The notes under the pieces were generated by a model that made no database searches, was not told the DNA's origin, and was given only the letters and a program-made list of their open reading frames with translations. DNA of 64,000 nucleotides from Sediminitomix flava (GTDB lineage: Bacteria > Bacteroidota > Bacteroidia > Cytophagales > Flammeovirgaceae), in NCBI RefSeq assembly GCF_003149185.1, contig NZ_QGDO01000001.1, positions 186,001-250,000 on the forward strand. Reading direction: 5' to 3'. Below, in pieces: positions 12,233-48,051 of this stretch. The number at the start of each line of letters is the position of its first letter. Positions within the stretch are counted from its first letter, which is position 1. The position numbers and the translations under genes are program-made.

Positions 12233-13435
12233 CTACTGTAACTGTAGATTTTTTTCTTCTATTTTCTCAAAAATCTGCCAACATTCCATCATTGCTCTTG
12301 GCACATGATAGCAACCTTTCCACTTACTCCCCTTCAATGATTGGTAAGCTTCTCCTCTTCTATTCAAATAACCAAACCATTCACCAAATTCAGGATCATG
12401 GAAATGTGACCAAGCATAATTGTGTACTTTTTCATACCAATCCCAACAACGCTGATCTTCGGTATGTAAGAATCCTTTAGATAAAGCAATTAGTGTTTCT
12501 AAATGCACCCACCAAAGCTTTTGATCCCATTCTAGTTGGAGTGGAGGTCTACCTTCGGCATCCATAAAGTAGAAAATACCACCAAATTCTTTATCCCAAC
12601 TATATTCTAAAGTAGATATTACTACATCAACTGCCTTTTGCATCAAAGCCGAATCGCTTTTTTTGGCAGCAATATCCATGATAAACCACATTGCTTCAAT
12701 CCCATGCCCAGGATTTAGTAAGCGTCCATCATAACAATCTGCTTTACTTCCATCAGGCAAAACATTTTCATAAACAATTCCCTTCTCTTCATCTAGGAAT
12801 ACATTCATAACTTCATCGACTACCTGATCGACAAGTTCATTCACTTTCTCATCTTCCAAAACACCCTCAAAAAGAAGAGCCATATTTGAAAGAATCATTG
12901 GCAATGCAAAGTTTTTCAATGGTCTAGTGCCATCTACAATTTTATTATAACTCCCTTTAGGATTTGCTTGACGTTTTAATATGTTCTCAAAAGTTCTTTT
13001 TGCAATAGCTAAGGCTTCTTCATCACCTGTCATTACTGCATATTCCTTGAATCCGATAGCTGCAAAACAATCTGAAAAAATATTATAGGGCTGAACAAGA
13101 GGTTTACCCTCTCTATTCAATGAAAAATACCAATTTCCATAGGCATCCATTCCATGTTTTTTCAAAAACTCATAACCAACTGTAGCTGCTTCCTTCCACT
13201 CTTCCTTCGCTTCAACGGTATTGTACATTCGAGAGAACATCCATAGCTCTCTGTTCTGCAACCACATAAACTTATCTGTATCGTAGACAGTACCATCTCT
13301 GTCCAAACAGCTAAAGTAACCTCCAAACTCTTGGTCTATAGAATTCTCTAACCAAAAGGGCATCACATTGTCTAACAAAGTTGCTTTATAAAGCTCTTTG
13401 TATTCTGTAATTTTAGTCAAGTCTTTCATCTTCAA
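12233..13435 (-). CDS. N-acylglucosamine 2-epimerase family protein
   Basis: 400 residues, the usual length of the AGE family with its (alpha/alpha)6 barrel. Members interconvert N-acetylglucosamine and N-acetylmannosamine, or epimerise other sugars such as cellobiose. Candidate catalytic residues match those of the animal enzyme by position: R62 (WLQNRELW), H244 and E247 (NPGHGIEAMW), H311 (WWVHLETL), and H377 (YHVPRAMME). There is no signal peptide, so it is cytoplasmic. It lies 18 bases after the ECF sigma gene, probably in the same transcript. This ties aminosugar conversion to the regulation of the whole locus. An exact substrate cannot be fixed from sequence. Confidence 0.88.
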   Translation of the reverse strand: MKMKDLTKITEYKELYKATLLDNVMPFWLENSIDQEFGGYFSCLDRDGTVYDTDKFMWLQNRELWMFSRMYNTVEAKEEWKEAATVGYEFLKKHGMDAYGNWYFSLNREGKPLVQPYNIFSDCFAAIGFKEYAVMTGDEEALAIAKRTFENILKRQANPKGSYNKIVDGTRPLKNFALPMILSNMALLFEGVLEDEKVNELVDQVVDEVMNVFLDEEKGIVYENVLPDGSKADCYDGRLLNPGHGIEAMWFIMDIAAKKSDSALMQKAVDVVISTLEYSWDKEFGGIFYFMDAEGRPPLQLEWDQKLWWVHLETLIALSKGFLHTEDQRCWDWYEKVHNYAWSHFHDPEFGEWFGYLNRRGEAYQSLKGSKWKGCYHVPRAMMECWQIFEKIEEKNLQLQ

Positions 13436-13453: not shown

Positions 13454-14017
13454 CTAGAACAAGACAGTGTGTTTTCGGAGCGAGGAGATTGATCTGTGAA
13501 TTAGGTTTCTCAAGGATTGATATTTCATGCCTGTGATCTGGGCAATTTCCTCATAACTTTTTTCTTCAAAAAACTTTAGATGAATGACTTCTCGCTGTCT
13601 TGCACTTAGACTTGCTAAGGCATCGTTTACTTGTCTAGTTTTATAGCTCTCTTCTTCGTCCAAGATCATATTTTCTTCCATAGAAGATGATGACCACTGA
13701 TTGACTTCAGCTTCAGACTGAAAGCTATCTAAGTTTGTTTGTTTCTCCTGTGAAGAGACGCTTCTAATTAGGTTATTCCTTAAAGCTCTGAATAGGTAAC
13801 TATCTAAAGATTGAATCTTATCAAAATTAGATCTGTTTTCCCATAATTTAGAGAACAGTTCTTGAATAATGTCTTTTACAAGAGACTCATCATGAGCAAT
13901 TTTAACTCCATAAGCCATCAAAGATGGGTAATAAAATTTGAAAACTTGCTCAAAAGCTTCCTCACTTCCATTTTGGAAACTCTCCATTAACTCCTCTTTG
14001 CTTTGTAGATGCCTCAT
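13454..14017 (-). CDS. ECF-type RNA polymerase sigma-70 factor
   Basis: 187 residues. Region 2 spans about 20-90 (FEQVFKFYYPSLMAYGVKIA, then DIIQELFSKLWENR, then SLDSYLFRALRNNLI). Region 4 spans about 125-180 (LSARQREVIHLKFFEEKSYE followed by EEIAQITGMKYQSLRNLIHRS). It belongs to the Bacteroidota ECF group normally paired with a FecR-type anti-sigma factor. No anti-sigma gene is adjacent; the only FecR-like gene in the window is 32 kb away at 46411-46827. Six copies of a shared -35/-10 element precede the operons in between, which makes this sigma the best candidate for driving them. Its own upstream region has no copy of that element. Confidence 0.92.
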   Translation of the reverse strand: MRHLQSKEELMESFQNGSEEAFEQVFKFYYPSLMAYGVKIAHDESLVKDIIQELFSKLWENRSNFDKIQSLDSYLFRALRNNLIRSVSSQEKQTNLDSFQSEAEVNQWSSSSMEENMILDEEESYKTRQVNDALASLSARQREVIHLKFFEEKSYEEIAQITGMKYQSLRNLIHRSISSLRKHTVLF

Positions 14018-18697: not shown

Positions 18698-20074
18698 TTA
18701 GACTGTAGCTGTAGTTTGTTGTGTAAATAAGTTGTGTTTTAGTAAAGCTTCTGGTACTCCACCTTTACAGATGTGAGAAGCTGCCTCCATATTATGCCCT
18801 AAAGACTGAGCAAATGGAACAGCAATACAAAGTCCAATTCCTGCCGCTCTGATCGCAACCATCCCACTTTGACTATCTTCAAAACCTGCTACTTTATCAA
18901 AATCTTCGGGAGCAATCCCCAACTGATAAAGTGCAATACTGTATAAGTCTCTATGTGGTTTTAATCTGATCTCGTGAGTAAGAGAAGCAGTCACGAAGCT
19001 TTCATAGATATTTCTGTAATCAGAGAATTTCTCGATCAAGAAGTCCTTTTTCTCTGTAGGCAATTCACTTGCTTGCAGTTGCTTTTGTACTACTGCAAAG
19101 ACTTCTTTGATCACAATCTCTGCCTCATAAAAGATTGAAGATGTTACGAGACCTACCTTAGCAGGAGTTTTTTCAAAAGAAAGACTTAATTCAACCAACT
19201 GCGCTGTCAACTCTTCTACAGAAGAATGCTCAAACTTTTCTCCACTTTTGTTCTCATAATTCTCAATGAGTGTTGGTACTAGGTATTTTATATCCTCACC
19301 TAACCAACCTCTAAGCATTGGAAGCAATATGCCGATTCCTTCCATTGGTTCAATTAGGTGTTTATCACCACCGCTTTCCCCAAAAACTTCCAACTGTACT
19401 TGCTGTCCCTTTCCTTCAGATATCAGACGAAGGATTTCATGATACTTCTGATAGTAAATATCAACAGCTACAGCTACCAAACTACTCTTGGAATCTAGTT
19501 TGAAATCGGCTTTACAGTCCTCTTCAAAATGGGCTAAATAGCCCATATCAAGCTGATCTGCTTCTTCCATTTTTGCTAAGTATGTATGCGATAGTATCTT
19601 TCCTGCAATCCCTGTTTTTGCAAGATTGATTTTAACTTCTTCTTTTCGGTTTTCATCCTTACCTAAAGTAAGCGTCCAAATAGCTGCATAGATAAAGCTC
19701 TTATAAATTTCCTCTTCTCGAATTGAAGATTCATACGTATCTATTAAATATTCGACATGCTTCGTTGTACTATTCCCAATGATATGCGGAAAATCAACAA
19801 CATGATCTAAGCCTTCCCACTCTTCCTTTGTCATTCTAGCCGAAAGCTTTCTCACCATATATTCCAATGAATACAAGCACAACTCTTCTGTTGTTGTGGT
19901 TGTACCATCCATATCCATCACCACAGCCTTCAACATATCTACTCCATGTTCTGCTTTTGGAGCAAGCGGATACAATTCGAAAGGAGGAAAAACAAATTCA
20001 GGATTCTGAACCTTTGCGTATTGTTCAGACAACTCCATTACCAATCCAGAAGCACGTTCTCTATTTATGATCAT
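18698..20074 (-). CDS. HAD superfamily phosphatase/phosphomutase-like protein with large insert
   Basis: 458 residues, about twice the size of a beta-phosphoglucomutase. HAD motif I is VVMDMDGTTT (D54, D56), motif II LVTSS, motif III the lysine in RLKPHRDLY, and motif IV GFEDSQSGMVA. A helical cap of roughly 250 residues separates motifs I and II. It is first in an operon with GH38 and DUF4127, so a phosphorylated sugar released from the glycan is the likely substrate (inference). An ECF-type promoter element lies about 65 bases upstream. Confidence 0.8.
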   Translation of the reverse strand: MIINRERASGLVMELSEQYAKVQNPEFVFPPFELYPLAPKAEHGVDMLKAVVMDMDGTTTTTEELCLYSLEYMVRKLSARMTKEEWEGLDHVVDFPHIIGNSTTKHVEYLIDTYESSIREEEIYKSFIYAAIWTLTLGKDENRKEEVKINLAKTGIAGKILSHTYLAKMEEADQLDMGYLAHFEEDCKADFKLDSKSSLVAVAVDIYYQKYHEILRLISEGKGQQVQLEVFGESGGDKHLIEPMEGIGILLPMLRGWLGEDIKYLVPTLIENYENKSGEKFEHSSVEELTAQLVELSLSFEKTPAKVGLVTSSIFYEAEIVIKEVFAVVQKQLQASELPTEKKDFLIEKFSDYRNIYESFVTASLTHEIRLKPHRDLYSIALYQLGIAPEDFDKVAGFEDSQSGMVAIRAAGIGLCIAVPFAQSLGHNMEAASHICKGGVPEALLKHNLFTQQTTATV

Positions 20075-20120: not shown

Positions 20121-20148
20121 TAGAGTACTAGCTGTGTATTTTGTACCC
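20121..20148 (-). promoter_or_regulatory. ECF-regulon promoter element, HAD-GH38-DUF4127 operon
   Basis: Minus strand: GGGTACAAAA, 12 bases, ACTC. It is one of six copies with identical spacing in front of locus operons, about 50-65 bases before the start codon of the HAD gene. The divergent 300-bp gap (20075-20374) holds nothing else I recognise, apart from a half-like GAGTACATAC at 20251-20260 that lacks the -10 part. Confidence 0.75.
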
Positions 20149-21278: not shown

Positions 21279-22130
21279 ATGCAAGATTTCAAAAGACAAC
21301 ATTTCGAACTATTGGGAAAAGAGGTACTCGGTAGAGCTTCTTTCATTCCGCCTTTCAAAGCTAATGCTCCACTAGAAAATGAAGCCCGATTTGTCTGCAT
21401 TGTAAATGGAAAATCTAAACTTTACATTCCAAACAATCAGTACAATTTTGAAAGCTCTGATTGCTTTATCATGAAATGTGACAACTTTGTAAATCATTGG
21501 TTTGAGAATGAAGACGGAAGTCGTTCAGAAGCGATTATTTTTCAACTTTACCCCGAAGTCATCAAGGCTATTTTTGGAGAAGAAATGAAAAGTATTTTTT
21601 CTTCTAAAAAGAAAATGACGACAAATTCTGTTGAAAGAGTCTCATCAAATTTGATTCTCAATAACTTCCTGACAAGTCTTCACGCGTATTTCGATCATCC
21701 AGAACAAATCAATGATGATTTTATAAAGCTTAAAATTAGAGAACTTATTATCATCTTGATTAACTCTGATAAAAGTGGAGATATAAAATCGATGCTTAAT
21801 GGGTTGTTTGACACCAATGCCTACGATTTTCAAGAAATTATTCATACCCATTTGTATGATGATTTAAGTGTGGAAGATTTAGCCTTTTTTGCAGGCTTGA
21901 GTCTTTCTACTTTCAAAAGAAAATTCAAAACGGTGTTTGGTACAAGTCCAAATCAGTACATCAAAGCCAAACGACTCACTAGAGCACAACACTTACTTCA
22001 AACTACAGAAGAGAGAATTTCAGATATTGCTTATGACTGTGGGTTCAACGATACAGGGTATTTCTCCAAACTTTTTAAAACAGAGTTTAATCAATCCCCT
22101 TCTGAATACAGAAAACTAAGTATTTTATAA
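21279..22130 (+). CDS. AraC family transcriptional regulator
   Basis: 283 residues. The C-terminal 100 residues are the double helix-turn-helix of the family (DLSVEDLAFFAGLSLSTFKR, then RISDIAYDCGFNDTGYFSKL, ending FKTEFNQSPSEYRK). The N-terminal part is a cupin-like ligand domain (FVCIVNGKSKLYIPNNQYNF). It probably controls the barrel gene upstream and/or the small gene 11 bases downstream. The effector is unknown. Confidence 0.93.
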   Translation: MQDFKRQHFELLGKEVLGRASFIPPFKANAPLENEARFVCIVNGKSKLYIPNNQYNFESSDCFIMKCDNFVNHWFENEDGSRSEAIIFQLYPEVIKAIFGEEMKSIFSSKKKMTTNSVERVSSNLILNNFLTSLHAYFDHPEQINDDFIKLKIRELIIILINSDKSGDIKSMLNGLFDTNAYDFQEIIHTHLYDDLSVEDLAFFAGLSLSTFKRKFKTVFGTSPNQYIKAKRLTRAQHLLQTTEERISDIAYDCGFNDTGYFSKLFKTEFNQSPSEYRKLSIL

Positions 22131-26802: not shown

Positions 26803-29800
26803 TTAAAACTCTACTTTAAGATTGAATCCGTAACTAGCTGTCTCAGGGAAAGCAAATATTTCGATACCTCCAGCATTGTTTGTTGCTACTGTCGAGTTAG
26901 GCGAAACATTTGGTACATTGCTATACAAATAGAATAAGTTTTGACCTACTGCCGAAAATGTTACATTTCTGAATGGCGTGCTTTCCAACATTTTATTTGG
27001 GAAAGTATAGCCCAAAGAAACTTGTTGTAATCTTAAGTAAGAAGCATCATAAACATAAGCTTCAGTAATGTTGCTCAATCTATCATAATATAGTTGAGGA
27101 TCAACGTAAGCCTCTACTGCTTGCCCTTCTTGGTTTACACCTGTAACTTTCATACCTCCAGTTGGTGTCCAGCTGTTTGAAGGAACATTTGCTTGTGCTC
27201 TTAGTGCTTCAGATTCGTACCAGCCATCTCTTCCATCTACAGAAGTAGCTAAAGTACCTCTCTGATTTCCGACTAGGTTAGTGTATGAGAACATGTCATA
27301 ACCAAACTTACCATCAATCGCTACATTTAGAGAGAATTGCTTGTAACGGAAGCTATTATTAATACCTAAAATCCATTTTGGAACAGAGTTACCAATAGTT
27401 ACTTGCTCATTCATTGCACCATCTTCTGTAAGCTGATACATAGGAAGGTTTTGCTCATCAAGCATAATTGTACCATTTTCGTCTCTCATATAGGCAGTAC
27501 CAACAATTTGACCAAGAGGTTGACCTGCTTGATGCTGAATCATAGCTCCTCCTGCTGCAAATGAATTCAACACTGGAACTCCTTCTGTTAATTCTAATAC
27601 CTCTGACCAGTTTCTACTGGCATTTACATTCATCTGCCAAGTAAAATCATTTGTTCTTACAATATCCGTATTTAGAGCAATCTCAAGTCCTTGGTTCATC
27701 ACTAAACCTGCATTTGTCAGACCTGTATTATACCCTGAAGATGGAGGTAGTGGTGCATAAAAAATCTGATTATCAGTACTCGTTTGATAATAGGCTACAT
27801 CCAAGATAATTCGATCATCAAAGAAGTGTGTTTCTAGACCAAAGTCAATTGATCTTGCTCTTTCTGGCTGTAGTTCATATAATGGTTTTGAAGAAGGAAT
27901 TCCTCCATAAGGTAAACCATAGTACTGATTAGGATTTGTAGCAAATGAATAGAAGATGCTATGTGGGCCTAAGTCATTTCCAACTTCAGCATAAGAAGCT
28001 CTAACTTTCATCATATTAACCGCTTCAGGTAAATTAACTGCCTCTGAAATAATCCAGCTTAAATCCACTGAAGGGTAATAAAAACTCCAATAACCTGGTG
28101 CCAATGCTGAAGTCCAATCATTTCTCATATTAAAGTTCAAGAACAATTGGTCTTTGTAATCGAAGGTCAATGTTCCAAACAATGATTGCATCGTTTTCTC
28201 AGTAATTGATTGACTTGTGATTACATTATTAAAGTTTTGAAGAATATAACCCAAGTTCGGATCAACAATTCCAGACTGACTCGAAGAAGCATATCCGTTA
28301 CTTTTGTTATAACGTAAGTTACCACCCGCCATGAAACTGAATCCGAAATCACCGAAAGATTTCAAACCACTTAAGAATGCATCATAGTTAACTTCACTAA
28401 AGTTTGACTTAGAGTAATTGATTGTCGCTAACCCTGCAGGTTTATATAGTGTTTGATCTGCAGTATGACGCTCTCTTTCATCCATTGTATAATCTATACT
28501 AGCTCTAGTTTTTAAAGAGAAATTATCTAATGGTACACCAACTAATAATTTCTTAATATCTAAGTCTAGCTCTGTAAAAGCAATAATTCTATTTCTTACA
28601 TCTTGGTTAGTATTTTCATTTACCGCCCAATAAGGGTTCTGCATTAAAGGATTTGATGCAAAAGGAAATGAACCCGTTCCTGCCCATACTGGATAACCAC
28701 CTTCCATTCTGTAGTTTGTATTATACATTACAGGAAGACCACTATTGGTTTGATACACTTGAAGTTGATCCAATGAAACTGATCTTGGCATTTGAGATAA
28801 AGTATACATTGGGTTATCAGGTGAACCACCTAAGTTTGGTCTGTTGAACACATCTTGATTGATGATATTCACTTTAGAATCCATTGTCAGATAATCCGTC
28901 AATTTAGAAGTCGCTCTCAAGTTCAATGACAATCTTTCTAACTCAGCATTTGGCATAATACCTTGATTTTTCATGTGAGTAGCAGAGAAATACACGGTAT
29001 TATTTTCTCCTGATTTACTTACAGAAACAGTATTATTAAATGTTGATCCTGTTCTAAAGAAATCTCCTACAGGATTTTCATTGTTTGTCATCAAAGTTTG
29101 TGTCTCACCCAAAAAGTTAGTCACTTGTTGTCCTGTCATTTTAGGACCCCAACCATTTACACTTGTCGCCAAATATTTACCACCAGAACCTTGTGCATAT
29201 TGATTTTGGAACTCCGGAACTACATTTGGTCTTTCCCAAGTATAGTTAGCATTGTAAGTAACTTTTAATTGATCATTCTTTGATCCTTTTTTAGTCGTAA
29301 TCATTACAACACCATTCAAACCTCTTGACCCGTACAATGCTGCTGCAGCACCACCTTTCAAGACGTTGATAGATTCAATGTCTTCAGCGTTAATATTATT
29401 TATGTTAGAACCATAATCGAAACCACCAAAAGCACCTGCTCCAGAACCACCAGAGTTTTCCATTGGTACTCCATCAATTACAATTAAAGCTTCATTACTA
29501 CTCGATAATGAATTGGCTCCTCTTATTCGAATAGAAGTAGATCCTGCTGCACCTGAACCCGATGTAGAAACATCCATACCTGCAATTTTACCAGATAAAG
29601 CCGAGAATGGTGAAGCTGCTGCTACTGTTGTTATCTCTTCTCCTCCTACTTGTTGCATGGCATAACCAACCGCTTTTTTATCACGTTTGATACCCAAAGC
29701 TGTCACTACCACTTCCTCCAATTGCTCTGCATCTTCTGTCATCACAATATCAAAATGAGATTGTGTCCCTACTTCTACAACTTCACTTTTATAACCTATA

Positions 29801-30027
29801 TAACTAAATTCTAGGGTTGTAGCTCCTTCATCAAGTTCTAATTTAAAGTTACCATCAAAGTCCGTAATTGTACCATGTGAGGAATCTTTGATCTTCACAT
29901 TCACCCCTATTAGAAGTTGGTTGTTTTGGTCTTTGACCGTTCCCGTAACAACCCGGGATTGTGCCCATAAAGGAAGTGCTGTCACAAACAGTAACAATAC
30001 TGCCAATAATTTGGATATCTTATTCAT
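26803..30027 (-). CDS. SusC/RagA family TonB-linked outer-membrane protein
   Basis: 1074 residues. Signal peptide 1-22, carboxypeptidase-like regulatory domain (about 27-105), TonB-box/plug (EQLEEVVVTALGIKRDKKAV), plug motifs (IRGANSLSSSNEALIVIDGV, NVLKGGAAAALYGSRGLNGV), and a long barrel ending in YGFNLKVEF with the usual terminal Phe. With SusD it imports oligosaccharides through the outer membrane using TonB energy. There is no N-terminal STN domain, so it cannot signal to a FecR protein in the classical way. An ECF-type promoter element lies about 95-110 bases upstream. Confidence 0.95.
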   Translation of the reverse strand: MNKISKLLAVLLLFVTALPLWAQSRVVTGTVKDQNNQLLIGVNVKIKDSSHGTITDFDGNFKLELDEGATTLEFSYIGYKSEVVEVGTQSHFDIVMTEDAEQLEEVVVTALGIKRDKKAVGYAMQQVGGEEITTVAAASPFSALSGKIAGMDVSTSGSGAAGSTSIRIRGANSLSSSNEALIVIDGVPMENSGGSGAGAFGGFDYGSNINNINAEDIESINVLKGGAAAALYGSRGLNGVVMITTKKGSKNDQLKVTYNANYTWERPNVVPEFQNQYAQGSGGKYLATSVNGWGPKMTGQQVTNFLGETQTLMTNNENPVGDFFRTGSTFNNTVSVSKSGENNTVYFSATHMKNQGIMPNAELERLSLNLRATSKLTDYLTMDSKVNIINQDVFNRPNLGGSPDNPMYTLSQMPRSVSLDQLQVYQTNSGLPVMYNTNYRMEGGYPVWAGTGSFPFASNPLMQNPYWAVNENTNQDVRNRIIAFTELDLDIKKLLVGVPLDNFSLKTRASIDYTMDERERHTADQTLYKPAGLATINYSKSNFSEVNYDAFLSGLKSFGDFGFSFMAGGNLRYNKSNGYASSSQSGIVDPNLGYILQNFNNVITSQSITEKTMQSLFGTLTFDYKDQLFLNFNMRNDWTSALAPGYWSFYYPSVDLSWIISEAVNLPEAVNMMKVRASYAEVGNDLGPHSIFYSFATNPNQYYGLPYGGIPSSKPLYELQPERARSIDFGLETHFFDDRIILDVAYYQTSTDNQIFYAPLPPSSGYNTGLTNAGLVMNQGLEIALNTDIVRTNDFTWQMNVNASRNWSEVLELTEGVPVLNSFAAGGAMIQHQAGQPLGQIVGTAYMRDENGTIMLDEQNLPMYQLTEDGAMNEQVTIGNSVPKWILGINNSFRYKQFSLNVAIDGKFGYDMFSYTNLVGNQRGTLATSVDGRDGWYESEALRAQANVPSNSWTPTGGMKVTGVNQEGQAVEAYVDPQLYYDRLSNITEAYVYDASYLRLQQVSLGYTFPNKMLESTPFRNVTFSAVGQNLFYLYSNVPNVSPNSTVATNNAGGIEIFAFPETASYGFNLKVEF

Positions 30028-30119: not shown

Positions 30120-30147
30120 AAGAGTGCTTCATACACTTTATGTACTC
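30120..30147 (-). promoter_or_regulatory. ECF-regulon promoter element, SusC-SusD operon
   Basis: Minus strand: GAGTACATAA, 12 bases, ACTC. Spacing is identical to the other five copies. It implies a leader of roughly 85-90 bases before the susC ATG. Confidence 0.75.
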
Positions 30148-34557: not shown

Positions 34558-36039
34558 TTAGTAAAACATGCCTGCGGCTACAATCAGTCCAAAGAAGCTT
34601 AACACCCAAGCATAGGCCAAAGTATTCCAAAGTACTTTTTGTACATCTACTTTCATTTCGTTTGCCAACCAAACATTCTGGATGTTGGTAGGGTCTGAAA
34701 TACCTTGCACTTGACCTGTTGCCATTAAAACTCCCATGACAGCACCACCTGACATTCCACTAGCCATCAAGATAGCAGCCAAACCGTATCCCATACCCCA
34801 AATATTAAGAGGACCTCTATAAAGTGCTAATGGTGCTGCGATTGTGAAAATCACTACATAAGCCCAAGGACTTGATGGTATAATCTGTGCAATGAGTGGT
34901 TTCAGTAAGTTAATCACTGGCCATCCTGCTTTATATTGTTCCAACTCTATACCAGGTCCGATGATCGCAATCAGAAGCATACCAATCCCGAACATTAGGA
35001 TTACAGCTGGCATTACTACGCTTGCCCCTTCAAAGGATGCTTGTATAAATTGGTTTAATGCTCCTTTCTTAAAAGTCGATAAGAATGTATAAATCAGACC
35101 TACCACAAAAGAAGCGATAAAATCCATATTAAAGACTAAGATCAATAACAGTGGGATAATTGGTGAAAAGACTGAAATCCAATGTGGTTCTTTGATCTTT
35201 TCATTTTTACCAGTTACTATTCTGATCGCTGCAGCTGTAAACAAACCTATTACACCGATTGCAGTCGTATATTTTAAAGCTAACCCTATGTACGTTGTTA
35301 CAGCATCAACATTTTCTCTTACCGCTTCTGTTGCGAAGTTATCGTAACCATATTTAATACCTAAGATTACCAATGCTCCAACAACACATCTTATCACTAT
35401 ATTTTTAATATTCAGATTATGTCCATCTCTGTATAGTTGGAGAGTGATATATATAATACCTATCAATAATCCCATCGTAAACATTACCAAGGCAAATGGT
35501 CTCACATCATCAATAGTCAGTCCCATTACATTAATATAAACTGCCCAGTTTGTCACGTTTAATGCTCCACCTATACTTACTCCTATCAAGAATATCCCAA
35601 CTGAAGTCATGGCTCCTACACCCACAGATGACAAGATAGGCAACACAATTGTAGCTACCATAATAATAGCTCCTAGACCACCTAGTGTAGTGAAAAGTAA
35701 TACAATCAAAAGCATCATAATCACTGAAATCACCCAAGGATTATCTCCACTCAACTCCGCTCCTTTCTTAATAAATGTCTCCGCTACTTTCGTCTTCTGC
35801 AACAGGATACTTAACATTCCTCCAAATATGGCGACAACAATCGCTTCTCCAAGCTTGGTTGCGCCCATTCCAATCACATATTTTATTGTATCATCTAACG
35901 TTACCCCTCCTATCAGTGCAATCAAAATTGCCATTACAGGCAATGCAATTAGGGCTGGCAACACTCTCTTGAACATTAAAAAAGACATTACTAGAAAAAC
36001 TCCAAGTAAAGCCGTTACCTGTATTACTTCCATAACCAC
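34558..36039 (-). CDS. Ion-transporter-superfamily permease
   Basis: 493 residues with about 12 membrane helices and several glycine-rich re-entrant segments (FTTLGGLGAIIMVATIVLPI, LYRGPLNIWGMGYGLAAIL). The layout resembles the GntP/CitMHS/dicarboxylate group of proton- or sodium-coupled carboxylate transporters. Substrate unknown; the coupling to a hydantoinase/oxoprolinase and flavoproteins suggests an organic acid or cyclic amide. It heads the operon. The ATG at 36033 is an alternative start. An ECF-type element lies about 60 bases upstream. Confidence 0.75.
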   Translation of the reverse strand: MVMEVIQVTALLGVFLVMSFLMFKRVLPALIALPVMAILIALIGGVTLDDTIKYVIGMGATKLGEAIVVAIFGGMLSILLQKTKVAETFIKKGAELSGDNPWVISVIMMLLIVLLFTTLGGLGAIIMVATIVLPILSSVGVGAMTSVGIFLIGVSIGGALNVTNWAVYINVMGLTIDDVRPFALVMFTMGLLIGIIYITLQLYRDGHNLNIKNIVIRCVVGALVILGIKYGYDNFATEAVRENVDAVTTYIGLALKYTTAIGVIGLFTAAAIRIVTGKNEKIKEPHWISVFSPIIPLLLILVFNMDFIASFVVGLIYTFLSTFKKGALNQFIQASFEGASVVMPAVILMFGIGMLLIAIIGPGIELEQYKAGWPVINLLKPLIAQIIPSSPWAYVVIFTIAAPLALYRGPLNIWGMGYGLAAILMASGMSGGAVMGVLMATGQVQGISDPTNIQNVWLANEMKVDVQKVLWNTLAYAWVLSFFGLIVAAGMFY

Positions 36040-36082: not shown

Positions 36083-36110
36083 AAGAGTGGAAAAGGTGTT
36101 CTTTGTACCC
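36083..36110 (-). promoter_or_regulatory. ECF-regulon promoter element, transporter operon
   Basis: Minus strand: GGGTACAAAG, 12 bases, ACTC. It lies in the 320-bp divergent gap (36040-36359), in which no other element is clear. Confidence 0.75.
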
Positions 36111-37589: not shown

Positions 37590-39878
37590 TTATTTCTTTA
37601 TTATTTTCTTCACTGCTTCACCTTTTTCAGAAGAGACTTTCAACAGAAATACACCCTTTGATAGCTTTCCTAAATCTAACTTCATATTGGTCGAAGGCTT
37701 TGTATTTACGAAATCGAGTAGCTGTTTTCCATTGATGTCATAAACTATCGCTTGAAGTAGTTTTATATTTTTTGAGCTAACAGTAAGTTCATCCTCAAAT
37801 GGAATTGGGAAAACTTTTAAATCATCTCCTAATGACGAATCACTTCCCAACACAATTAAATTTCCTGTAACATTTAACGTTAAAATAGCTTCAGAGGAAT
37901 AATTAGCGTCATCAAACATTTCAAAACTAAACTTAGACACCGCTTCAGTTTCATTCAATGAAAATAAAAAACTGTACTGTTCCTCTAAAGAAGTTCCATC
38001 AAACTTAACCTCATCGTAAACCAATTCAGAACCATCAACTTCTCTCTTCACGACTAAAGAATCTACCTCTCTAGTAGCTGAAGCTGATCTTAATGTAAGA
38101 TCAATTGAAAAATCACTAAAGTTTGGATGATCTTTCGTTATTTCAGTTTTATTATTTTCAGTAAACTTAATTGAAGGCTCAGAATTTCTTGCAGTCAACA
38201 GATAACTACCCTCAGAAACAACACCTAAATTATCAGTCACTACTACATGGATATATTCTTTTTTATTGTTGGCTGCTTTTACGACATACTCAAAAGGAAC
38301 TTGAGCCTCAAACCCTTCAATACTTTGGGTCAAGATATGTGAACTTGAAGTATAACCTTCTCTCTGTGCATAAATTGTTAGTTCAGAAAGACTTATCCCT
38401 GAATTCTGACTACTCACTGAGACTGTATTTTCTACTTTCTCATCAGTCGCGAAAATCCCACCTGTTTTACCACCTTCAAAACTAATATCTAACTTACTTT
38501 CACCAACTACTACAAGTTTAATGGCATCAACCACAACATATTTTCCTTCTTCATTTTCAGAGGAAGAAATAACTAGGTTATCATTACTTCCTAAATCTAC
38601 TGTTCCCAAAAAGTGAAACCCTACTTCTTTATCTTCTGATTGGTTTACTTGAAAAGAAATAGGCTCTAAATTTTCACCTCTATTAACGACATAATCTACT
38701 TTAGTTGCATTCATCTCATCAGAATCAAACCATGCGTATATTTCGTACTTTCTAGAATCAATTCCATTGAAAGAATATGTAACTAAAGATTCTGAATCAG
38801 CTGGCAACAATCTAGAAGCAGAACTTCCATAAGAAGTATGAGTTTCAGATTCAATTACTCCTGTATCTGCGTTTTCTTGATATACTTCCTCGTTTTCAGT
38901 ATCCAAGACCTTAGGAGCTTTTGTGATCATGAGTACAGTTGGCACAGGTCTCTCTTTTCCATCAGATGGTTTATTCAATACTTGACCATTTACCACCATT
39001 GCAGAAGAACCTCCTCCATCAAGATTCATCACATCCACACAGCCTAAATCCATCATAAGTTTTGCAACTTCTACTAGAGGTAAACCTCTACTATGTGTCT
39101 GACGTCCATCAACCACCATACATATCAAGTGATTATCTTCTGTATAACCAATTACGGTTCTTGGTGTATCTTTTGAATCTGTGATATCGCTATAAAAAAC
39201 TTCAGGATCATAATTCTCTATCAGAATACCATCTTTTACCAATACAGGTCCTCCACCTACTGCCATATGAGGTTCCCACATTTTTCCATTTTCAGGAAAA
39301 CTTGCTGAAGGAATTTCTAAAGGAGCAACTGCAGTGCTATTCGGGGCAGGCTGCGGATAAAAGTATGTTTCTGACCTAGAAGTAGTATTATAAACCCATC
39401 CTAATTCCACTTCTCCATTTTCCATAAAACCAATAGCCCCTCTTGTTGGATAATAAGTTCCCAGATCTCTTCCAAGAGCTCTAATATTATCTGCTAACAC
39501 TTCTCCATTATTCACCAATAAACTATAAGATGAATTTCCACCAAAGTATCCCGCATTAATAGCCATGTATGCATCATCACCTAATTCTGCCATATGCTGA
39601 CTAGGGTATTTTGCTTCATCACCCAAAACCGTTCTGATCGCTATTTCATCACTGTTCAGATCTGTAATCGTATAAAAACCAGAAAAAGATTTTTCCTGCT
39701 GACTCTCATTATAAATCGTAGTTTCGCATTCAAAAACTTTCATAGCAGAAGGCAACTCACCTTCAATATCTATCTTCTCCGTCCAGACTATATTCGACAA
39801 ATCATAGCCTTGTGAAAAGGCATTGGTCAATTGAAAAAATAGACCAAGGAAAAATGTAGAGCGTAAAATCTTGTTCAT
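37590..39878 (-). CDS. Phosphodiester glycosidase (NAGPA family) with T9SS sorting domain
   Basis: 762 residues. Signal peptide 1-22 (ending AFSQ). The catalytic NAGPA domain spans about 60-320 (INAGYFGGNSSYSLLV, MVVDGRQTHSRGLPLVEVAK, MNLDGGGSSAMVVNG), the family of the lysosomal uncovering enzyme that removes GlcNAc from GlcNAc-1-phosphate diesters. A golvesin/Xly-like beta-sandwich follows (about 340-460), then Ig-like modules, and the last 75 residues are a type A T9SS sorting domain (KVFPIPFEDEL ... LSKGVFLLKVSSEKGEAVKK). It is therefore secreted and probably surface-attached. The paralogue next door lacks all modules after the NAGPA domain. Confidence 0.88.
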   Translation of the reverse strand: MNKILRSTFFLGLFFQLTNAFSQGYDLSNIVWTEKIDIEGELPSAMKVFECETTIYNESQQEKSFSGFYTITDLNSDEIAIRTVLGDEAKYPSQHMAELGDDAYMAINAGYFGGNSSYSLLVNNGEVLADNIRALGRDLGTYYPTRGAIGFMENGEVELGWVYNTTSRSETYFYPQPAPNSTAVAPLEIPSASFPENGKMWEPHMAVGGGPVLVKDGILIENYDPEVFYSDITDSKDTPRTVIGYTEDNHLICMVVDGRQTHSRGLPLVEVAKLMMDLGCVDVMNLDGGGSSAMVVNGQVLNKPSDGKERPVPTVLMITKAPKVLDTENEEVYQENADTGVIESETHTSYGSSASRLLPADSESLVTYSFNGIDSRKYEIYAWFDSDEMNATKVDYVVNRGENLEPISFQVNQSEDKEVGFHFLGTVDLGSNDNLVISSSENEEGKYVVVDAIKLVVVGESKLDISFEGGKTGGIFATDEKVENTVSVSSQNSGISLSELTIYAQREGYTSSSHILTQSIEGFEAQVPFEYVVKAANNKKEYIHVVVTDNLGVVSEGSYLLTARNSEPSIKFTENNKTEITKDHPNFSDFSIDLTLRSASATREVDSLVVKREVDGSELVYDEVKFDGTSLEEQYSFLFSLNETEAVSKFSFEMFDDANYSSEAILTLNVTGNLIVLGSDSSLGDDLKVFPIPFEDELTVSSKNIKLLQAIVYDINGKQLLDFVNTKPSTNMKLDLGKLSKGVFLLKVSSEKGEAVKKIIKK

Positions 39879-39985: not shown

Positions 39986-40960
39986 TTATTCAAAAATAGG
40001 TTGAGTAATCATTAATACGGAAGGTACTGCTCTTTCATTTCCATCAGATGGTTTATTCAATACTCGTCCATTTACAACCATAGCTGATGAACCACCCCCA
40101 TCTAAGTTTAAGACATCAGTACAACCTAAACTTTTCATTAACCTAGCAACTTCAATTAATGGCAAACCACGGCTATGTGCTTGACGACCATCAACGACCA
40201 TACAGATTAGCTTGTTATCTGGAGTGTAGCCAATTGCAGTTCTTGGAGTATCTTTTGATTCTGTGATGTCAGTATAAAAAACTTCAGGAGCATAATTTTC
40301 AATTACTTCTCCATCCTTAACTAAAATAGGCCCTCCACCTACAGCCATCTTGGGTTTCCATATTCTCCCGTTTTCTGGAAATTCTTTAGTAGGTGGTATT
40401 AATGGCTTTTCAGAAATTGAATTAGGTGCAGGTTGAGGGTAAATGTAAACTTCTTCTTTAGGAGTTATACTATAAATCCAACCGATCTCGACCGATCCAT
40501 TTTCCATAAACCCAATTGCCCCTCTTGTCGGATGATAAACTCCTGTTTCATGCACAGACTCTAAGGTATTATCCGTCAAAATATGTCCATCATTAACGAG
40601 TAAACTCACTGATGAATTACGTCCAAAATAACCCGCATTGATGGTCATATATACTGCATCACCTAACTCTGCCGCATACTGACTAGGATATTTAGGTTTA
40701 TCGCCTAAAATAGTCCGAACCTTTACTTCATCACTTCCTAGATCAATGAGGGTATATACTGCTGAAAAAGATTTCTCTTCTTTACGCTCATTATAAATCG
40801 TAGTTTCGCATTCAAAAACTTTGATCGCAGAAGGTAATTCGCCTTCAATGTCCACCTTCTCTGTCCAAGCAATATTAGACAAATCATAACCTTGTGAAAA
40901 GGCATTGGTCAATTGAAAAAATAGACCAAGGAAAAATGTAGAGCGTAAAATCTTATTCAT
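39986..40960 (-). CDS. Phosphodiester glycosidase (NAGPA family), single-domain
   Basis: 324 residues. Signal peptide identical to that of the downstream paralogue (residues 1-22). The NAGPA domain (INAGYFGRNSSVSLLVNDGH, CMVVDGRQAHSRGLPLIEVA, LNLDGGGSSAMVVNG) ends four residues before the stop, so there is no sorting domain and it should stay in the periplasm. With the T9SS-tailed copy, the same chemistry may be placed on both sides of the outer membrane. Upstream, the GHL10 gene ends in a UUCG-loop hairpin, so this gene may depend on read-through. No ECF-type element precedes it. Confidence 0.88.
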   Translation of the reverse strand: MNKILRSTFFLGLFFQLTNAFSQGYDLSNIAWTEKVDIEGELPSAIKVFECETTIYNERKEEKSFSAVYTLIDLGSDEVKVRTILGDKPKYPSQYAAELGDAVYMTINAGYFGRNSSVSLLVNDGHILTDNTLESVHETGVYHPTRGAIGFMENGSVEIGWIYSITPKEEVYIYPQPAPNSISEKPLIPPTKEFPENGRIWKPKMAVGGGPILVKDGEVIENYAPEVFYTDITESKDTPRTAIGYTPDNKLICMVVDGRQAHSRGLPLIEVARLMKSLGCTDVLNLDGGGSSAMVVNGRVLNKPSDGNERAVPSVLMITQPIFE

Positions 40961-43081: not shown

Positions 43082-44245
43082 TTATTGTATTGCAGCTGGA
43101 AATACTGCAGTTTCCTTATATGCTTCTTTGATTTCGTCTTCAAACTTCTTTACACCTTCATAGAAAAAGTGTACTTCACCTTTCAAGCCTAGCTCTCTGT
43201 TTGCCTCTATCATTTGGGTAAATAATTCACTTGAAGGATACTCTTCTCCCACCTTAATTAAAATTCCAGGGAATAATTTATGACGGTGTTGAGGAAGAAT
43301 ATATTGAACTGTAGACGCTAAAGTACTTTTATAATTCTCAATATCTCTACGATAAACCTGAGGACAAATTAAATCTACATAACCTTCGTTTATCCAAGTT
43401 GGCCAATCTTGAAGATATTCTTCTTTTGCCCAAGGAAATACTGAAGGAGCCATAGAAACTATACAATTCGGATCTTTTGCTTTCACTTCTTTATAAAGTC
43501 TTCTCATATAGTCATTGAGCTTCTCAGCTCTCCAATTCACCCATTCAAAATCTTTGTAATATTTTGGAGGCTCTTGCCCAGCATGCTCTTTTTTGTATTG
43601 CTCAATAACGGCTGGATTATACCCTCCACTCGAAGGCATTGCAGGTAAACGGTCATCTCCTTGGATACCATCTACATCATATTTTTCAACTACTTCAAGA
43701 ATCAAAGAAGTCAAGAAATCTTGCACTTCCACATCTAATGCATTCATCCAGTCAAAATTATTTTTATTGACTAGTTTTCCTTCATTGTTTAAAGAAGCCC
43801 AATGAGGTTTCTTTTCAATGAATACACCACCATTTTTATTGTATGATGAAGAGAAGCCAAACTCAAACCAAGCGAATACTTTAATATTCTTCCTGTGAGC
43901 TTCTTCAATGAGTTCTTTTAAAGGATCACGTCCTGTATTTTCGGGGTCTAAAATAGGGTCAATTTCTACTCCTGTGAAATTCTTCATAATTTCACTTCTG
44001 TATGTAGTCATTGCTTTGTTCAGTGTTACTACAAAAATGGTGTTAATACCTAACTCATCACATTTTTCAACAGCATCGATCACTTTCTGTTTAGAATAAA
44101 GTGCATCACTTGCCACATTAGTAAGCCATACTCCTCTTACTGCTTCTATCTTTTTCGCTTGATCGTTTTGTAGAGTGTTACAACCAAAAATATTTAGCAC
44201 TAACACAGCCAAAACAAACTTCAGAATACTACTTTTTACTTCCAT
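43082..44245 (-). CDS. GHL10 (DUF187) glycoside hydrolase-like lipoprotein, short form
   Basis: 387 residues from the chosen start. The ATG at 44245 (MEVKSSILKFVLAVLVLNIF, then GC) is preferred over one 9 codons upstream because it gives a clean lipoprotein signal ending at Cys22. The rest is one GHL10 domain: RGVWLTNVASDALYSKQKVI, DGIQGDDRLPAMPSSGGYNP, DWPTWINEGYVDLICPQVYR, and GILIKVGEEYPSSEL. It is a clear paralogue of the downstream gene without the DUF5018 repeats. It is first in its operon, with an ECF-type element 60 bases before the chosen start. Confidence 0.88.
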   Translation of the reverse strand: MEVKSSILKFVLAVLVLNIFGCNTLQNDQAKKIEAVRGVWLTNVASDALYSKQKVIDAVEKCDELGINTIFVVTLNKAMTTYRSEIMKNFTGVEIDPILDPENTGRDPLKELIEEAHRKNIKVFAWFEFGFSSSYNKNGGVFIEKKPHWASLNNEGKLVNKNNFDWMNALDVEVQDFLTSLILEVVEKYDVDGIQGDDRLPAMPSSGGYNPAVIEQYKKEHAGQEPPKYYKDFEWVNWRAEKLNDYMRRLYKEVKAKDPNCIVSMAPSVFPWAKEEYLQDWPTWINEGYVDLICPQVYRRDIENYKSTLASTVQYILPQHRHKLFPGILIKVGEEYPSSELFTQMIEANRELGLKGEVHFFYEGVKKFEDEIKEAYKETAVFPAAIQ

Positions 44246-44287
44246 AAATTGACCAATATTAAAATCCACCAACTCTTTCTTTGATAA

Positions 44288-44315
44288 ATGAGTATGTGAA
44301 GTGTTTTTTGTACTC
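44288..44315 (-). promoter_or_regulatory. ECF-regulon promoter element, GHL10 operon
   Basis: Minus strand: GAGTACAAAA, 12 bases, ACTC. Position relative to the inner ATG (about 43-60 bases) agrees with the copies before the HAD, transporter and FecR-like genes. Confidence 0.75.
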
Positions 44316-44428: not shown

Positions 44429-46063
44429 CTAGCGAGTAAGCTCTACAGTTACGATTCCACTTGCAGTACCTAATGCTGTAATTAATACTTTATCTTCTTT
44501 TACTACTACAGAAGTACTACCAGCAATGTTACCATTAGCAATTTGATCACCTAATTGGTGCTCAAATACCAATTTACCTTCACCTGGATTAACTGTATCT
44601 TCAGCAGTAATTGCGTTGAATGCTTCAACAGGATCTCCTGTTACATCAAAGATTTGAAGCATCTGTCTCTTGTCTCCACCATCTTCACAAAGCATCACAG
44701 CTAAGTAATCAGCACCGTTGAATGAGAAGTAAGAAGTACCTACTGTTCTCTTACCAATAGCATCTCCGTTGATGATTGCTAATTGCTCACCATTTGTATT
44801 ATAGATTGCTGGAGTCATTTCAGCACCATTCACGATGATGTTATCTGATTCTGGCAATTGAATTGCTGCACCATAGTTACCTGCTTTCACAACATCTGAT
44901 AGCTCAATAACTTCTGGAGTTTGAGAAACAACACCACCTGCAATCGCAAACTTAAATACTTTAGTGTTATTTACTACTGAATTCCATCCAGGGAATTCCA
45001 TTGCATAAATCGCACCATCACCGTTTACGTCACCTTCTACCTCAAAGTACTCAAAACGAGCTGAAGGATCTGCAGGAGTAGTATAAGTAAGAATTACTTC
45101 TGGATCAGCATCTACCGCAGACCATTTGTAAATTTTCCAATCTCCACCATCCCAGCTCATGTTTGAAGCTACAATAGTATTTCCGCTTGCACGCACGTGA
45201 GCTAAGCCCCATACACCACCTTCAACACCTACTTTACTTAATGTTGGAGTAGTCTCGTCAAACTCTCCTGCACCACCTGCTGCTGGTAAATAATAAATAT
45301 TTCCACCATCTTCTTTAGACACTAAGAATACATACTCAGAAGTTTGAGCAGCACTTCTTTGACCATCTGCAGTAAAGATTGCTGGCAACGTACCTGTTTC
45401 CTCAGTAAATTCATAAATAAAGCTAGTGTTATTAAAACCGAAAGGTACAGTTGATACCTCAGCCATATATTCTTTAGTTTCGTCACCAAAAGAAACTGTG
45501 AATGTAACAGCTCCATTTGAGAAATCTACAGTCTCACCAGAAGCTGGAGAAACAGTAGCACCTTCACTCAACTCAATTGTTGGTACGATTGCAGTCAAAT
45601 CTGCAGTCTCATACATTTCGATTACAATCTTATTTTCTGCTGTAGGAACGATAGGGTTATTCAAAGCATCTTCTACAGTTACTGTAAGAATAGAACCATC
45701 TTCTGGAGCAGCAACATCAACTGTAACAGAATAAGTAGTTTTCACATCACCATTTGTAACGATCAAAGTTACTGGAGAAGAAAAATCCATTTCACCAAGG
45801 GCAGGATTCACTACAGCTCCTTCACTTACTGTTACTACAGGAGTCAATTTAGTCACATCAGTACCATAAGGAACTGTTGCTTTAACAGCGCTAGCCTCAA
45901 TAACTACATCTCCTTCTCCAAGTGTTACACCCTGAAAACCAAATGTAAGAATCTTCGCTTCTTTTACTACCTTATCATCTTCATCTTCTGAACATGAGGT
46001 AAAGCCCAAACCCATAGAAAGGGTAATTAAAAAGCTAAATAGAATTGATAAGTTGCGTTTCAT
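44429..46063 (-). CDS. DUF5018/DUF4623-type surface lipoprotein
   Basis: 544 residues. Lipoprotein signal to C24 (GFTSC). Two DUF5018-type repeats (about 34-117 and 124-205) match those in the long GHL10 protein. The C-terminal 330 residues are a beta-propeller-like region of the DUF4623 type (VFLVSKEDGGNIYYLPAAGG, GVWGLAHVRASGNTIVASNM). No enzymatic residues were recognised. It may bind the glycan at the surface, as with SGBP-type proteins of Sus-like loci (inference). It is a single-gene unit with its own terminator and an ECF-type element 215-240 bases upstream. Confidence 0.8.
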   Translation of the reverse strand: MKRNLSILFSFLITLSMGLGFTSCSEDEDDKVVKEAKILTFGFQGVTLGEGDVVIEASAVKATVPYGTDVTKLTPVVTVSEGAVVNPALGEMDFSSPVTLIVTNGDVKTTYSVTVDVAAPEDGSILTVTVEDALNNPIVPTAENKIVIEMYETADLTAIVPTIELSEGATVSPASGETVDFSNGAVTFTVSFGDETKEYMAEVSTVPFGFNNTSFIYEFTEETGTLPAIFTADGQRSAAQTSEYVFLVSKEDGGNIYYLPAAGGAGEFDETTPTLSKVGVEGGVWGLAHVRASGNTIVASNMSWDGGDWKIYKWSAVDADPEVILTYTTPADPSARFEYFEVEGDVNGDGAIYAMEFPGWNSVVNNTKVFKFAIAGGVVSQTPEVIELSDVVKAGNYGAAIQLPESDNIIVNGAEMTPAIYNTNGEQLAIINGDAIGKRTVGTSYFSFNGADYLAVMLCEDGGDKRQMLQIFDVTGDPVEAFNAITAEDTVNPGEGKLVFEHQLGDQIANGNIAGSTSVVVKEDKVLITALGTASGIVTVELTR

Positions 46064-46277: not shown

Positions 46278-46305
46278 AAGAGTAAAACAGACAATTATTG
46301 TACTC
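46278..46305 (-). promoter_or_regulatory. ECF-regulon promoter element, DUF5018/DUF4623 gene
   Basis: Minus strand: GAGTACAATA, 12 bases, ACTC. It lies in the 347-bp gap 46064-46410 and implies a leader of about 205-210 bases, longer than in the other operons. Confidence 0.7.
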
Positions 46306-46354: not shown

Positions 46355-46381
46355 ACAAAAAAAGTCTCAAAATTTGAGACT
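46355..46381 (-). terminator. Terminator of the FecR-like gene
   Basis: Stem agtctcaaa / tttgagact with a one-base centre and seven Ts after it on the minus strand. Confidence 0.8.
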
Positions 46382-46410: not shown

Positions 46411-46827
46411 TTAAATCTTGCTGAGTACAAACACCCCGACAGCTATTGCACAGGCAATTATAAATCCTATTTTGAGGATTTCAGCCCAATTCAGTTTTGA
46501 ATTCCTCCTATGTATAACGTTTAAATTTCTTGGTTGATTTTCTAGTTTCGGGGAATTCAAACTTTTATTACTTTTTGCTTTAGACTTGAATTTATCCCAC
46601 TCAGATTCTACCTCAGCTTGGTACTTCGAAAAGTTAGATGAATCTCTTAAAAGTAAAATTAAATTTTCTGCTTCCTCCATGTCTTTACTCTTTTCTGGAT
46701 GTTTTACTTTCCATGTAGCCCAAAAAGCGATATCCTTTTGATCTTTCTTAAGGACATACGATTGAAAACTTTCATCTTCAACAAAATCTTCGACTTTGTA
46801 CTGTTCAAGTATATTATCTTTTTTCAT
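46411..46827 (-). CDS. Miniature FecR-like anti-sigma factor (no periplasmic domain)
   Basis: 138 residues. Residues 10-60 match the N-terminal sigma-binding region of Cytophagales FecR proteins (VEDFVEDESFQSYVLKKDQK, then IAFWATWKVKHPEKSKDMEE, AENLILLL). A basic linker follows, then a single membrane helix (about 114-136) and the stop. Normal FecR proteins have another 200 or more residues (FecR and DUF4974 domains) in the periplasm. The DNA after the stop is a terminator, so no detached remainder is seen. Likely role: hold the locus ECF sigma factor at the membrane. It carries the ECF-type element itself, giving negative feedback. Sigma partner at 13454-14017 is inferred. Confidence 0.75.
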   Translation of the reverse strand: MKKDNILEQYKVEDFVEDESFQSYVLKKDQKDIAFWATWKVKHPEKSKDMEEAENLILLLRDSSNFSKYQAEVESEWDKFKSKAKSNKSLNSPKLENQPRNLNVIHRRNSKLNWAEILKIGFIIACAIAVGVFVLSKI

Positions 46828-46878: not shown

Positions 46879-46906
46879 AAGAGTAAGATTTATCTATTTT
46901 GTACCC
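46879..46906 (-). promoter_or_regulatory. ECF-regulon promoter element, FecR-like gene
   Basis: Minus strand: GGGTACAAAA, 12 bases, ACTC, about 52-70 bases before the start codon. Confidence 0.75.
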
Positions 46907-47000: not shown

Positions 47001-47035
47001 AATAAAAGGAACTTTCATTTTACTGAAAGTCCCTT
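47001..47035 (-). terminator. Terminator of the MarR-FMN reductase operon
   Basis: A 12-bp stem with one G-U pair (aaggaactttca / tgaaagtccctt) is followed on the minus strand by TTTTATTG. Confidence 0.7.
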
Positions 47036-47610: not shown

Positions 47611-48051
47611 TTAGTTTCCTTTTAGTTTTATAATCAATTCTTTTAAAGTCTCAACCTCTGTTTCAGTCAGATTTTTGGACATTGGTTGATGAAAGTTTTC
47701 AACTTCCTTATTTAATTCCTTTAATAGTTTTTCTCCTTTTTGAGTTATTCTTATATCAACTTTTCGTCTATTTGAAGGGCATTCTTCGCGTGTAATTAAA
47801 GACTTAGTAAATAACTTATCTATGATTCGGGATACATTACTAGACTTCTGAACCATTTTGATTTGAATGTCCTGAACTGTTACAGGACTACCATTTTGTC
47901 CTTTCAATATCCTTAATACATTAAACTGAGGCTCTGTAATATCAAACTTTTTCAAGACCACACTCACCTGATCAGTTATCCAATGTCCTGTTCTAATAAT
48001 CTGTTCGATCGCTAAATAATATCCCTTACCCATATTTATTTTACTCAACAT
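47611..48051 (-). CDS. MarR family transcriptional regulator
   Basis: 146 residues. The winged helix region includes PQFNVLRILKGQNGSPVTVQ, MVQKSSNVSRIIDKLFTKSL and ECPSNRRKVDIRITQKG (the wing). It is likely a repressor of its own operon and of the FMN reductase, released by a phenolic/quinone or redox signal; this is family knowledge, and the ligand is not known. Confidence 0.92.
   Translation of the reverse strand: MLSKINMGKGYYLAIEQIIRTGHWITDQVSVVLKKFDITEPQFNVLRILKGQNGSPVTVQDIQIKMVQKSSNVSRIIDKLFTKSLITREECPSNRRKVDIRITQKGEKLLKELNKEVENFHQPMSKNLTETEVETLKELIIKLKGN

Follow-up and report, generated by a model that had tools for sequence, protein, structure and literature searches.

The gene at positions 46411 to 46827 of the DNA analyzed here, from Sediminitomix flava, encodes a FecR-type protein reduced to a predicted sigma-binding domain and one membrane helix (mini-FecR). 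In the reading that we favor, with some reserve, it is a descendant of the FecR of a neighboring catabolic island that has lost its receptor arm and has been kept as a membrane-anchored feedback element. Coordinates refer to the window, i.e., the whole 64,000-nt stretch (contig NZ_QGDO01000001.1, positions 186,001 to 250,000), and gene order was compared with the single syntenic genome available (G017, of the same family), the genus itself being represented by a single genome. The gene and the hairpin that follows it are:

46411..46827, minus strand: mini-FecR, 138 aa; sigma-binding domain at residues ~7-80, a linker, and a membrane helix at ~114-137

46363..46381, minus strand: terminator-like hairpin, directly 3′ of the mini-FecR stop codon

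The open frame of mini-FecR starts with ATG and is undisrupted. The hydropathy peak of its product begins at residue 112, and a helix at residues 114-137 appeared in two low-confidence models (mean pLDDT 62 for the two-sequence and 51 for the single-sequence model, both poor); both lines point to a single membrane helix after a cytoplasmic domain. Beyond this helix there are a few residues at most, and the periplasmic tail is nearly nil. The initial annotation had described 138 residues with a FecR-type N-terminus, a C-terminal helix and no periplasmic sensor, all of which was confirmed, on the minus strand. A Foldseek search with the two-sequence model returned zero PDB matches, the only chain compared by VIA-align (Z 3.0, from a V-ATPase entry) gave no structure match, and a profile search against PDB sequences found nothing convincing, its top rows (E 0.0016) being 15-residue stretches of RecA fusions. 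A second hairpin at 47006-47035 separates mini-FecR from the gene upstream, and the mini-FecR gene stands alone. Its GC content by codon position (0.42/0.27/0.30) is like that of the neighboring genes, as against 0.31/0.25/0.30 in intergenic DNA.

Searches of Pfam and NCBIfam with mini-FecR gave no FecR or DUF4880 match, and the N-termini of the full-length FecR relatives scanned likewise lacked a match to a curated model. Homology of the N-terminal domain to FecR proteins was instead seen in pairwise comparisons, in which frames of FecR length (mostly 320-410 aa) matched mini-FecR from residue ~7 to 60-130. The domain was matched in eight of 17 other genomes of the same family (E ≤ 0.01) and in 86 of 290 others of the same order (E ≤ 1e-4), the genome of S. 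flava itself being excluded from both counts. The best match within the family (45% identity over residues 7-72, E 2e-13) was to a FecR of ~350 aa. When aligned with 17 full-length FecRs, mini-FecR retained 13 of the 13 columns conserved at ≥60%, 11/11 at ≥75% and 19/27 at ≥50%, so that it belongs with the better-conserved sequences of that alignment. Searched with a profile built for this type of domain, the S. flava genome gave two full matches, mini-FecR and one full FecR, both of which had been used to train the profile; a third match (E 0.13) covered the membrane part only.

When the region was translated in three frames and searched by tblastn with five full-length FecRs, nothing apart from mini-FecR itself scored better than E 0.6, and no remnant of a FecR sensor was found. 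The FecR domain (PF04773) matches four places in this genome, zero of them within the window, and both PF04773 and FecR_C (PF16344) are absent from mini-FecR and from the sequence downstream, while both are present in the full-length relatives scanned. The possibility of a missed frameshift with the remaining FecR downstream, raised in the initial annotation, was ruled out by the three-frame translation, the tblastn search and the window-wide PF04773 scan, which found no such remainder.

The catabolic island to which mini-FecR appears to belong includes the following genes:

26803..30027, minus strand: SusC-type receptor without STN; closest same-family relative in G017, 53% identity

25293..26789, minus strand: SusD-type lipoprotein, 64% identity to G017

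44429..46063, minus strand: DUF5018 lipoprotein, a conserved island member; G017 counterpart 52% identical

By one-way BLAST, 15 genes of the window have their best-match counterparts in one stretch of G017, at ~22-54 kb of its contig. These counterparts, several of them given putative names from their sequences, are HAD, GH38-type, DUF4127-type and acyltransferase-like genes, a hypothetical gene, SusC, SusD, two FAD enzymes, an oxoprolinase-like gene, the permease, a phosphodiester glycosidase-like gene, two GHL10 genes and the DUF5018 lipoprotein gene; 13 are ~40-73% identical and two ~31%. Among the G017 matches listed, the window genes 12233, 20375, 21279, 22142 and 36360 had no counterpart, except for AraC matches at the level of the HTH. 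The G017 relative of the window SusC (G017:C1:32227-35424) likewise lacks STN. The STN-type SusC of locus L087 was considered as the counterpart and rejected; it is a second receptor, and the closest relative is the one just given. Two adjacent phosphodiester glycosidase-like paralogues of the window, 37590-39878 and 39986-40960, start with near-identical signal peptides, and the pair has one counterpart among the G017 matches listed.

The island permease was found in four of 390 genomes (E ≤ 1e-90), S. flava and G017 included. The other islands of the permease type, in G046 (L154-L156) and G269 (L152-L153), belong to another family and have a related catabolic gene set and a long SusC; their sigma is only 22.5% identical to that of the window, and in G046 a gene of FecR length (370 aa) lies between sigma and SusC.

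At its far end, by the GHL10 and DUF5018 genes, the G017 island carries a row consisting of an STN-type SusC, SusD, a sigma gene and a 350-aa FecR. This SusC has 1173 aa, and its STN match (E 4e-4) scores 20.5 bits, under the curated cut-off of 28.4. At the corresponding end of the island in the window mini-FecR is found alone, without the receptor pair, and the sigma gene is located at the opposite end of the island. The match between the two islands is inexact, in that the G017 cassette and the adjoining GHL10 and DUF5018 genes are on opposite strands and the last two of these genes are in swapped order. Taken as a whole, mini-FecR appears to have arisen in this lineage by reduction of a standard cassette of sigma, FecR and STN-type SusC that is still intact in G017. 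The initial annotation had held that homologues all carrying the full periplasmic domain at this position would speak against a reduced regulator; the single syntenic homologue (n = 1) does carry it, which favors secondary loss over a domain that had been overlooked. The same annotation had placed the sigma and anti-sigma genes 32 kb apart, a distance that is correct here, whereas the two are adjacent in G017. Its suggestion that the DUF5018 lipoprotein might serve as a substitute trigger fared less well. In G017, the counterpart of this lipoprotein lies near a full-length FecR and an STN-type receptor, and since that genome has both, we reject the lipoprotein as a lineage-specific replacement.

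Within the window no STN match was found, the SusC included, as the initial annotation had stated for this receptor and a profile scan bore out. We compared 19 receptor N-termini, comprising the window SusC and 18 FecR-adjacent receptor or STN proteins; 17 matched STN (E ≤ 1), some of them weakly (e.g., L093, E 0.12), and the window SusC was among those without. An STN domain is thus usual in FecR-adjacent receptors. When the STN-type SusC of G017 was searched against the S. flava genome, one of 38 matches reached the STN region, and this was the SusC at C10, which adjoins another FecR. No STN receptor of the kind used in TonB-linked cell-surface signaling was found for the window locus. Because mini-FecR has no FecR sensor and the SusC of the locus has no STN, the classical contact between receptor and FecR has nothing to act through, which supports the earlier view that it is impossible. 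From these sequence comparisons, the receptor arm and the FecR sensor are both missing in this lineage.

The sigma factor proposed as partner lies at the other end of the island:

13454..14017, minus strand: ECF sigma factor, 187 aa, proposed partner of mini-FecR; sister of the FecR-adjacent sigma of G017

12233..13435, minus strand: what we take to be an AGE-type epimerase, 19 nt behind the sigma gene and probably on the same transcript

The best family match of the window sigma was TIGR02985 (FecI-like ECF sigma of Bacteroidota), at 107.7 bits, below the curated threshold of 126.4. Its identity to the G017 sigma is 45%, at 167 bits, against 121 bits for the runner-up among 22, and in a sigma tree that took in 27 of the 28 sigma hits of the S. 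flava genome the two were sisters (support 99/97), nested in a group of FecR-adjacent sigmas (support 90/90). The branch of the window sigma measures 1.05 and that of its G017 sister 0.37. Among the 27 tested, the sole other S. flava sigma in this group adjoins its own full-length FecR. The sigma tree and gene order support the proposed pairing of mini-FecR with the sigma factor at 13454-14017.

A two-box motif, GRGTACA-N15-ACTCTT, was found upstream of six units of the island, mini-FecR included:

46879..46906, minus strand: island motif (GGGTACA-N15-ACTCTT), 51 nt before the mini-FecR ATG

20121..20148, minus strand: island motif, upstream of the unit 18698-20074 / 15899 / 14293

30120..30147, minus strand: island motif, upstream of SusC

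36083..36110, minus strand: island motif, upstream of the permease gene 34558-36039

44288..44315, minus strand: island motif, upstream of the GHL10 gene 43082-44272

46278..46305, minus strand: island motif, 214 nt before the DUF5018 lipoprotein gene

The underlying pair, TACA-N15-ACTC, was chosen after inspection of 19 upstream stretches from both islands and is present in seven of them, while in each of 20 shuffled sets any pair reached at most five. RGTACA-N15-ACTC occurs seven times in the window against 0.25 expected (largest number in 100 shuffles, two). Six of these sites are intergenic, on the minus strand and upstream of island genes; the seventh, at 10856-10880, falls within a gene and was discarded as a chance match. 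The strict pattern RGTACA-N15-ACTCT was found five times in the window and not once in 907,007 bases of other S. flava DNA, a control that represents about 0.9 Mb of the genome's 6.6 Mb; RGTACA-N15-ACTC had eight matches in the same control. A spacing of 15 gave seven matches in the window and every other spacing from 8 to 25 gave none or one. As 15 was the commonest spacing in the control also, mildly (8 vs. 1 to 5), some control matches may be real sites. The six window sites score 23-26 bits by construction, the matrix having been built from them, and the best control score in 800 kb was 15.9 bits. Independent evidence for the motif comes from the control with the strict pattern, from the uniqueness of the spacing and from the hits in G017. 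Weaker matrix hits at 46991, 31813 and 55443 (9.5-11.8 bits) were left uncounted, as were the scores that three of the six sites gave on the reverse strand.

In 100 kb of G017, which did not enter the matrix, eight places score ≥9, and five of these are intergenic (10.5-16.5 bits), upstream of FecR, the permease, GHL10, HAD and one further gene. The ACTCTT box faces the gene at all six S. flava and all five G017 upstream sites. The distance from motif to likely start is 42-51 nt at four of the six former sites, with the GHL10 start taken as a downstream ATG, and 35-64 nt at the five latter ones. At the threshold used, no motif was found upstream of the STN-type SusC of G017 (the classical target) or of either sigma gene. 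Nor was it shared by 12 sister cassettes of sigma, FecR and SusC, where a promoter search gave only A/T-rich pairs and a loose pattern gave five scattered matches; the one upstream of the L084 sigma starts with GAGTACA. With the sister cassettes lacking it, the motif is not tied to the sigma through relatives, and this is the weakest link in the sigma assignment.

The motif also forms part of an inverted repeat and could be recognized by a different regulator. It might then be the operator of a DNA-binding protein (AraC, MarR or other), mini-FecR being merely one target. Its form, GRGTA-N16-TACTC, with three sites that score on the other strand too, would suit such a role, as would the two direct-repeat boxes, on average 21 bp apart, described for HTCS motifs of Bacteroides (PMC3878776), and the window does contain an AraC gene (21279-22130) and a MarR gene (47611-48051). 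However, AraC matches near the G017 island are only at the HTH level (24-27%, one on a cut piece), the matches listed for the 100 kb of G017 compared include none to MarR, and the regulators common to both islands are the sigma and FecR. The gene-facing orientation of the ACTCTT box at all of these upstream sites and the distances given above also argue against an operator, a reading that we regard as unlikely. A core promoter is the reading that suits the motif best, and the motif offers a concrete candidate for an ECF promoter in Bacteroidota, where the prediction of ECF-controlled promoters has been termed challenging in one study (PMC3878776). That the mini-FecR gene itself bears this promoter-like motif, which the initial annotation had not anticipated, points to feedback.

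These observations also bear on whether mini-FecR is a decaying remnant, still transcribed and functionless, with its sigma free or fading after loss of the STN receptor. In favor of decay, neither the receptor pair nor the periplasmic half has been kept, the window sigma has the longer branch of the sister pair, and fragment-like short FecR-N ORFs occur elsewhere (L073, L074). Yet the frame is open with coding-like codon positions, the domain keeps its 13 columns conserved at ≥60% together with the membrane helix, a strong motif stands 51 nt upstream, and a terminator-like hairpin comes right after the stop codon. By these measures mini-FecR is truncated relative to its relatives and does not qualify as a pseudogene, and we consider decay rather improbable.

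The domain alone says less about descent. Against the mini-FecR domain, the syntenic FecR of G017 ranked 12th of 19 by BLAST bits (47.4; best 60.5) and was outscored by a different FecR of the same genome (C8). A tree of 20 domains neither joined nor rejected the pair of mini-FecR and syntenic FecR, and forcing them together lowered the likelihood by 0.71 log units (p-AU 0.27). The tree is weak evidence in both directions, since it was built on some 75 columns and the G017 branch is long (1.33). Descent from the syntenic FecR is accordingly argued from position, sigma and motif, as the domain by itself does not single out that FecR. Mini-FecR could thus serve a different sigma, or stem from another FecR, with its place beside the island an accident. 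Besides the domain similarity, which does not favor the syntenic FecR, this would be in line with the lack of a membrane protein in the ORF that follows several of the other sigma genes in S. flava. The sigma tree, the location of mini-FecR at one end of the island and the motif common to the island units all run counter to this idea, and we give it little credence.

Other FecRs reduced in length were found in the genomes compared. Among the matches listed, frames of <200 aa besides mini-FecR occurred in G012 (124 and 91 aa), G166 (101 aa), G188 (147 aa) and G120, the last (139 aa) being cut by a contig end, and no membrane helix was seen by eye in the two of G012 or those of G166 and G188. 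The G166 and G188 proteins, from one genus, are soluble, domain-only FecRs that adjoin a sigma gene (L123 8623-8916 in G166, 97 aa; L122 ~7712-8065 in G188, 117 aa). Between them 46 residues agree over 80 codons, with dN at 0.26 and dS saturated at 4.2; the domain is conserved and the tails differ. This soluble form looks to be maintained. Like mini-FecR, these proteins are FecRs cut down to the sigma-binding domain, which indicates that domain-only FecRs also arise elsewhere; unlike it, they have no helix by eye, an adjacent sigma gene and tails that are not conserved.

Expansion of the cytoplasmic part was also seen. FecRs of 688 and 692 aa (L124 5887-7953 in G113 and L125 6019-8097 in G062, both minus strand) have, by eye, five tandem N-terminal sigma-binding domains followed by a normal helix and FecR domain, and possibly hold several sigma molecules. 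A sigma gene lies on one side of each and, in L124, an STN-matching protein on the other. In L043 (G000:C4), a 499-aa protein directly after another sigma gene (at ~27134) has tandem W-rich repeats before its helix, which suggests a repeated cytoplasmic module again.

Mini-FecR can be set beside the FecR/FecI/FecA signaling of E. coli and Pseudomonas and its SusC-linked form in Bacteroidota. It shares with them a predicted N-terminal sigma-binding domain followed by one helix, a FecI-like ECF sigma and a SusC/SusD island. It differs from them in having neither a periplasmic FecR domain nor a FecR C-terminal domain, in a locus without an STN receptor, and in a sigma gene that is unlinked. A closer likeness is to the trimmed form CL(b) of E. 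coli FecR and to FecR121, a version without almost all of the periplasmic region (PMC8144685), since all three consist of a cytoplasmic domain and a membrane helix with a very short periplasmic end. CL(b) is a transient protease product and FecR121 a laboratory construct, whereas mini-FecR is encoded as such. In the literature searched, which was covered in part, we found no description of a natural FecR reduced to the sigma-binding domain and helix.

RseP is reported to turn CL(b) into the released form, including that derived from FecR121 (PMC8144685), and also to cleave some small membrane proteins (PMC10470546). The S. flava genome has a gene for an RseP-like M50 site-2 protease (444 aa) in which two PDZ stretches were recognized, and the anatomy of mini-FecR, with an N-in helix and a small periplasmic part, fits that of a putative RseP substrate. 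Its likeness to the RseP-cleaved, trimmed FecR of E. coli suggests that the amount of mini-FecR probably depends on its synthesis and on proteolysis in the membrane, and not on a receptor. Membrane proteolysis had been among the triggers suggested in the initial annotation, and it may act here. FoxR is described as shielded against proteolysis by an STN domain, acting via the C-domain of FoxR (PMC11637429). Mini-FecR lacks everything on which an STN-type shield would act, and would therefore be unprotected from birth.

The sign of its effect on the sigma is less readily predicted. The stub might be mainly a pro-sigma cofactor, with the sigma always active and the island constitutive or otherwise controlled. 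This idea overlaps with the explanation that we favor and differs from it in the sign of the effect. E. coli FecR fragments from 1-59 up to 1-116 are reported to make FecI active without signal (PMC9249621), and a site-2 protease with PDZ domains is available in this genome. FecR-type regulators vary, however. An FpvR fragment, 1-67, inactivates its sigmas (PMC9249621), and in B. thetaiotaomicron loss of an anti-sigma factor raises transcription of PUL24 (PMC11501099). A mainly activating role is a serious possibility, although we lean against it.

The explanation that we favor, a retained feedback element, can be laid out as follows; anatomy, gene order, the place of the sigma in its tree, domain conservation and the motif were observed directly, and we infer descent from the syntenic FecR, sigma binding, reading of the motif by the sigma, the sign of the feedback and proteolysis. 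The ancestor would have had a cassette of STN-type receptor, SusD, sigma and FecR at one end of the island, as in G017. The lineage of S. flava would have lost both this receptor pair and the periplasmic half of its FecR, and the sigma gene would have come to lie at the other end. The remaining stub would bind the sigma through its intact cytoplasmic domain while tail-anchored in the inner membrane. The island sigma would read the two-box motif and switch on both the island and the stub; as the motif is shared with other island units and its simplest reader is the island sigma, the stub would be made when the island is on. Binding of the sigma at the membrane and clearance of the stub by proteolysis would close a feedback loop. 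In its fullest form, which we put forward tentatively and with considerable doubt, this would be a receptor-less ECF switch in which the stub is encoded in the form of a site-1 product, made from a sigma promoter and continuously removed by the RseP-like protease.

If such a switch exists, the island would be run by a loop of synthesis and degradation, not by a surface signal, and full signaling systems may collapse stepwise into autonomous timers, receptor and sensor being lost together. The case also tests whether receptor and sensor go as a unit. Whereas the FecR fragments described so far come from truncation in the laboratory or from protease action, mini-FecR seems to be one that evolution has produced and retained, with an STN-type receptor partner lost and the promoter-like motif of the island in front of the gene. 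Mini-FecR would in this way show, in a natural setting, how the cytoplasmic domain of FecR acts on its own, be it to inhibit, to activate, or both.
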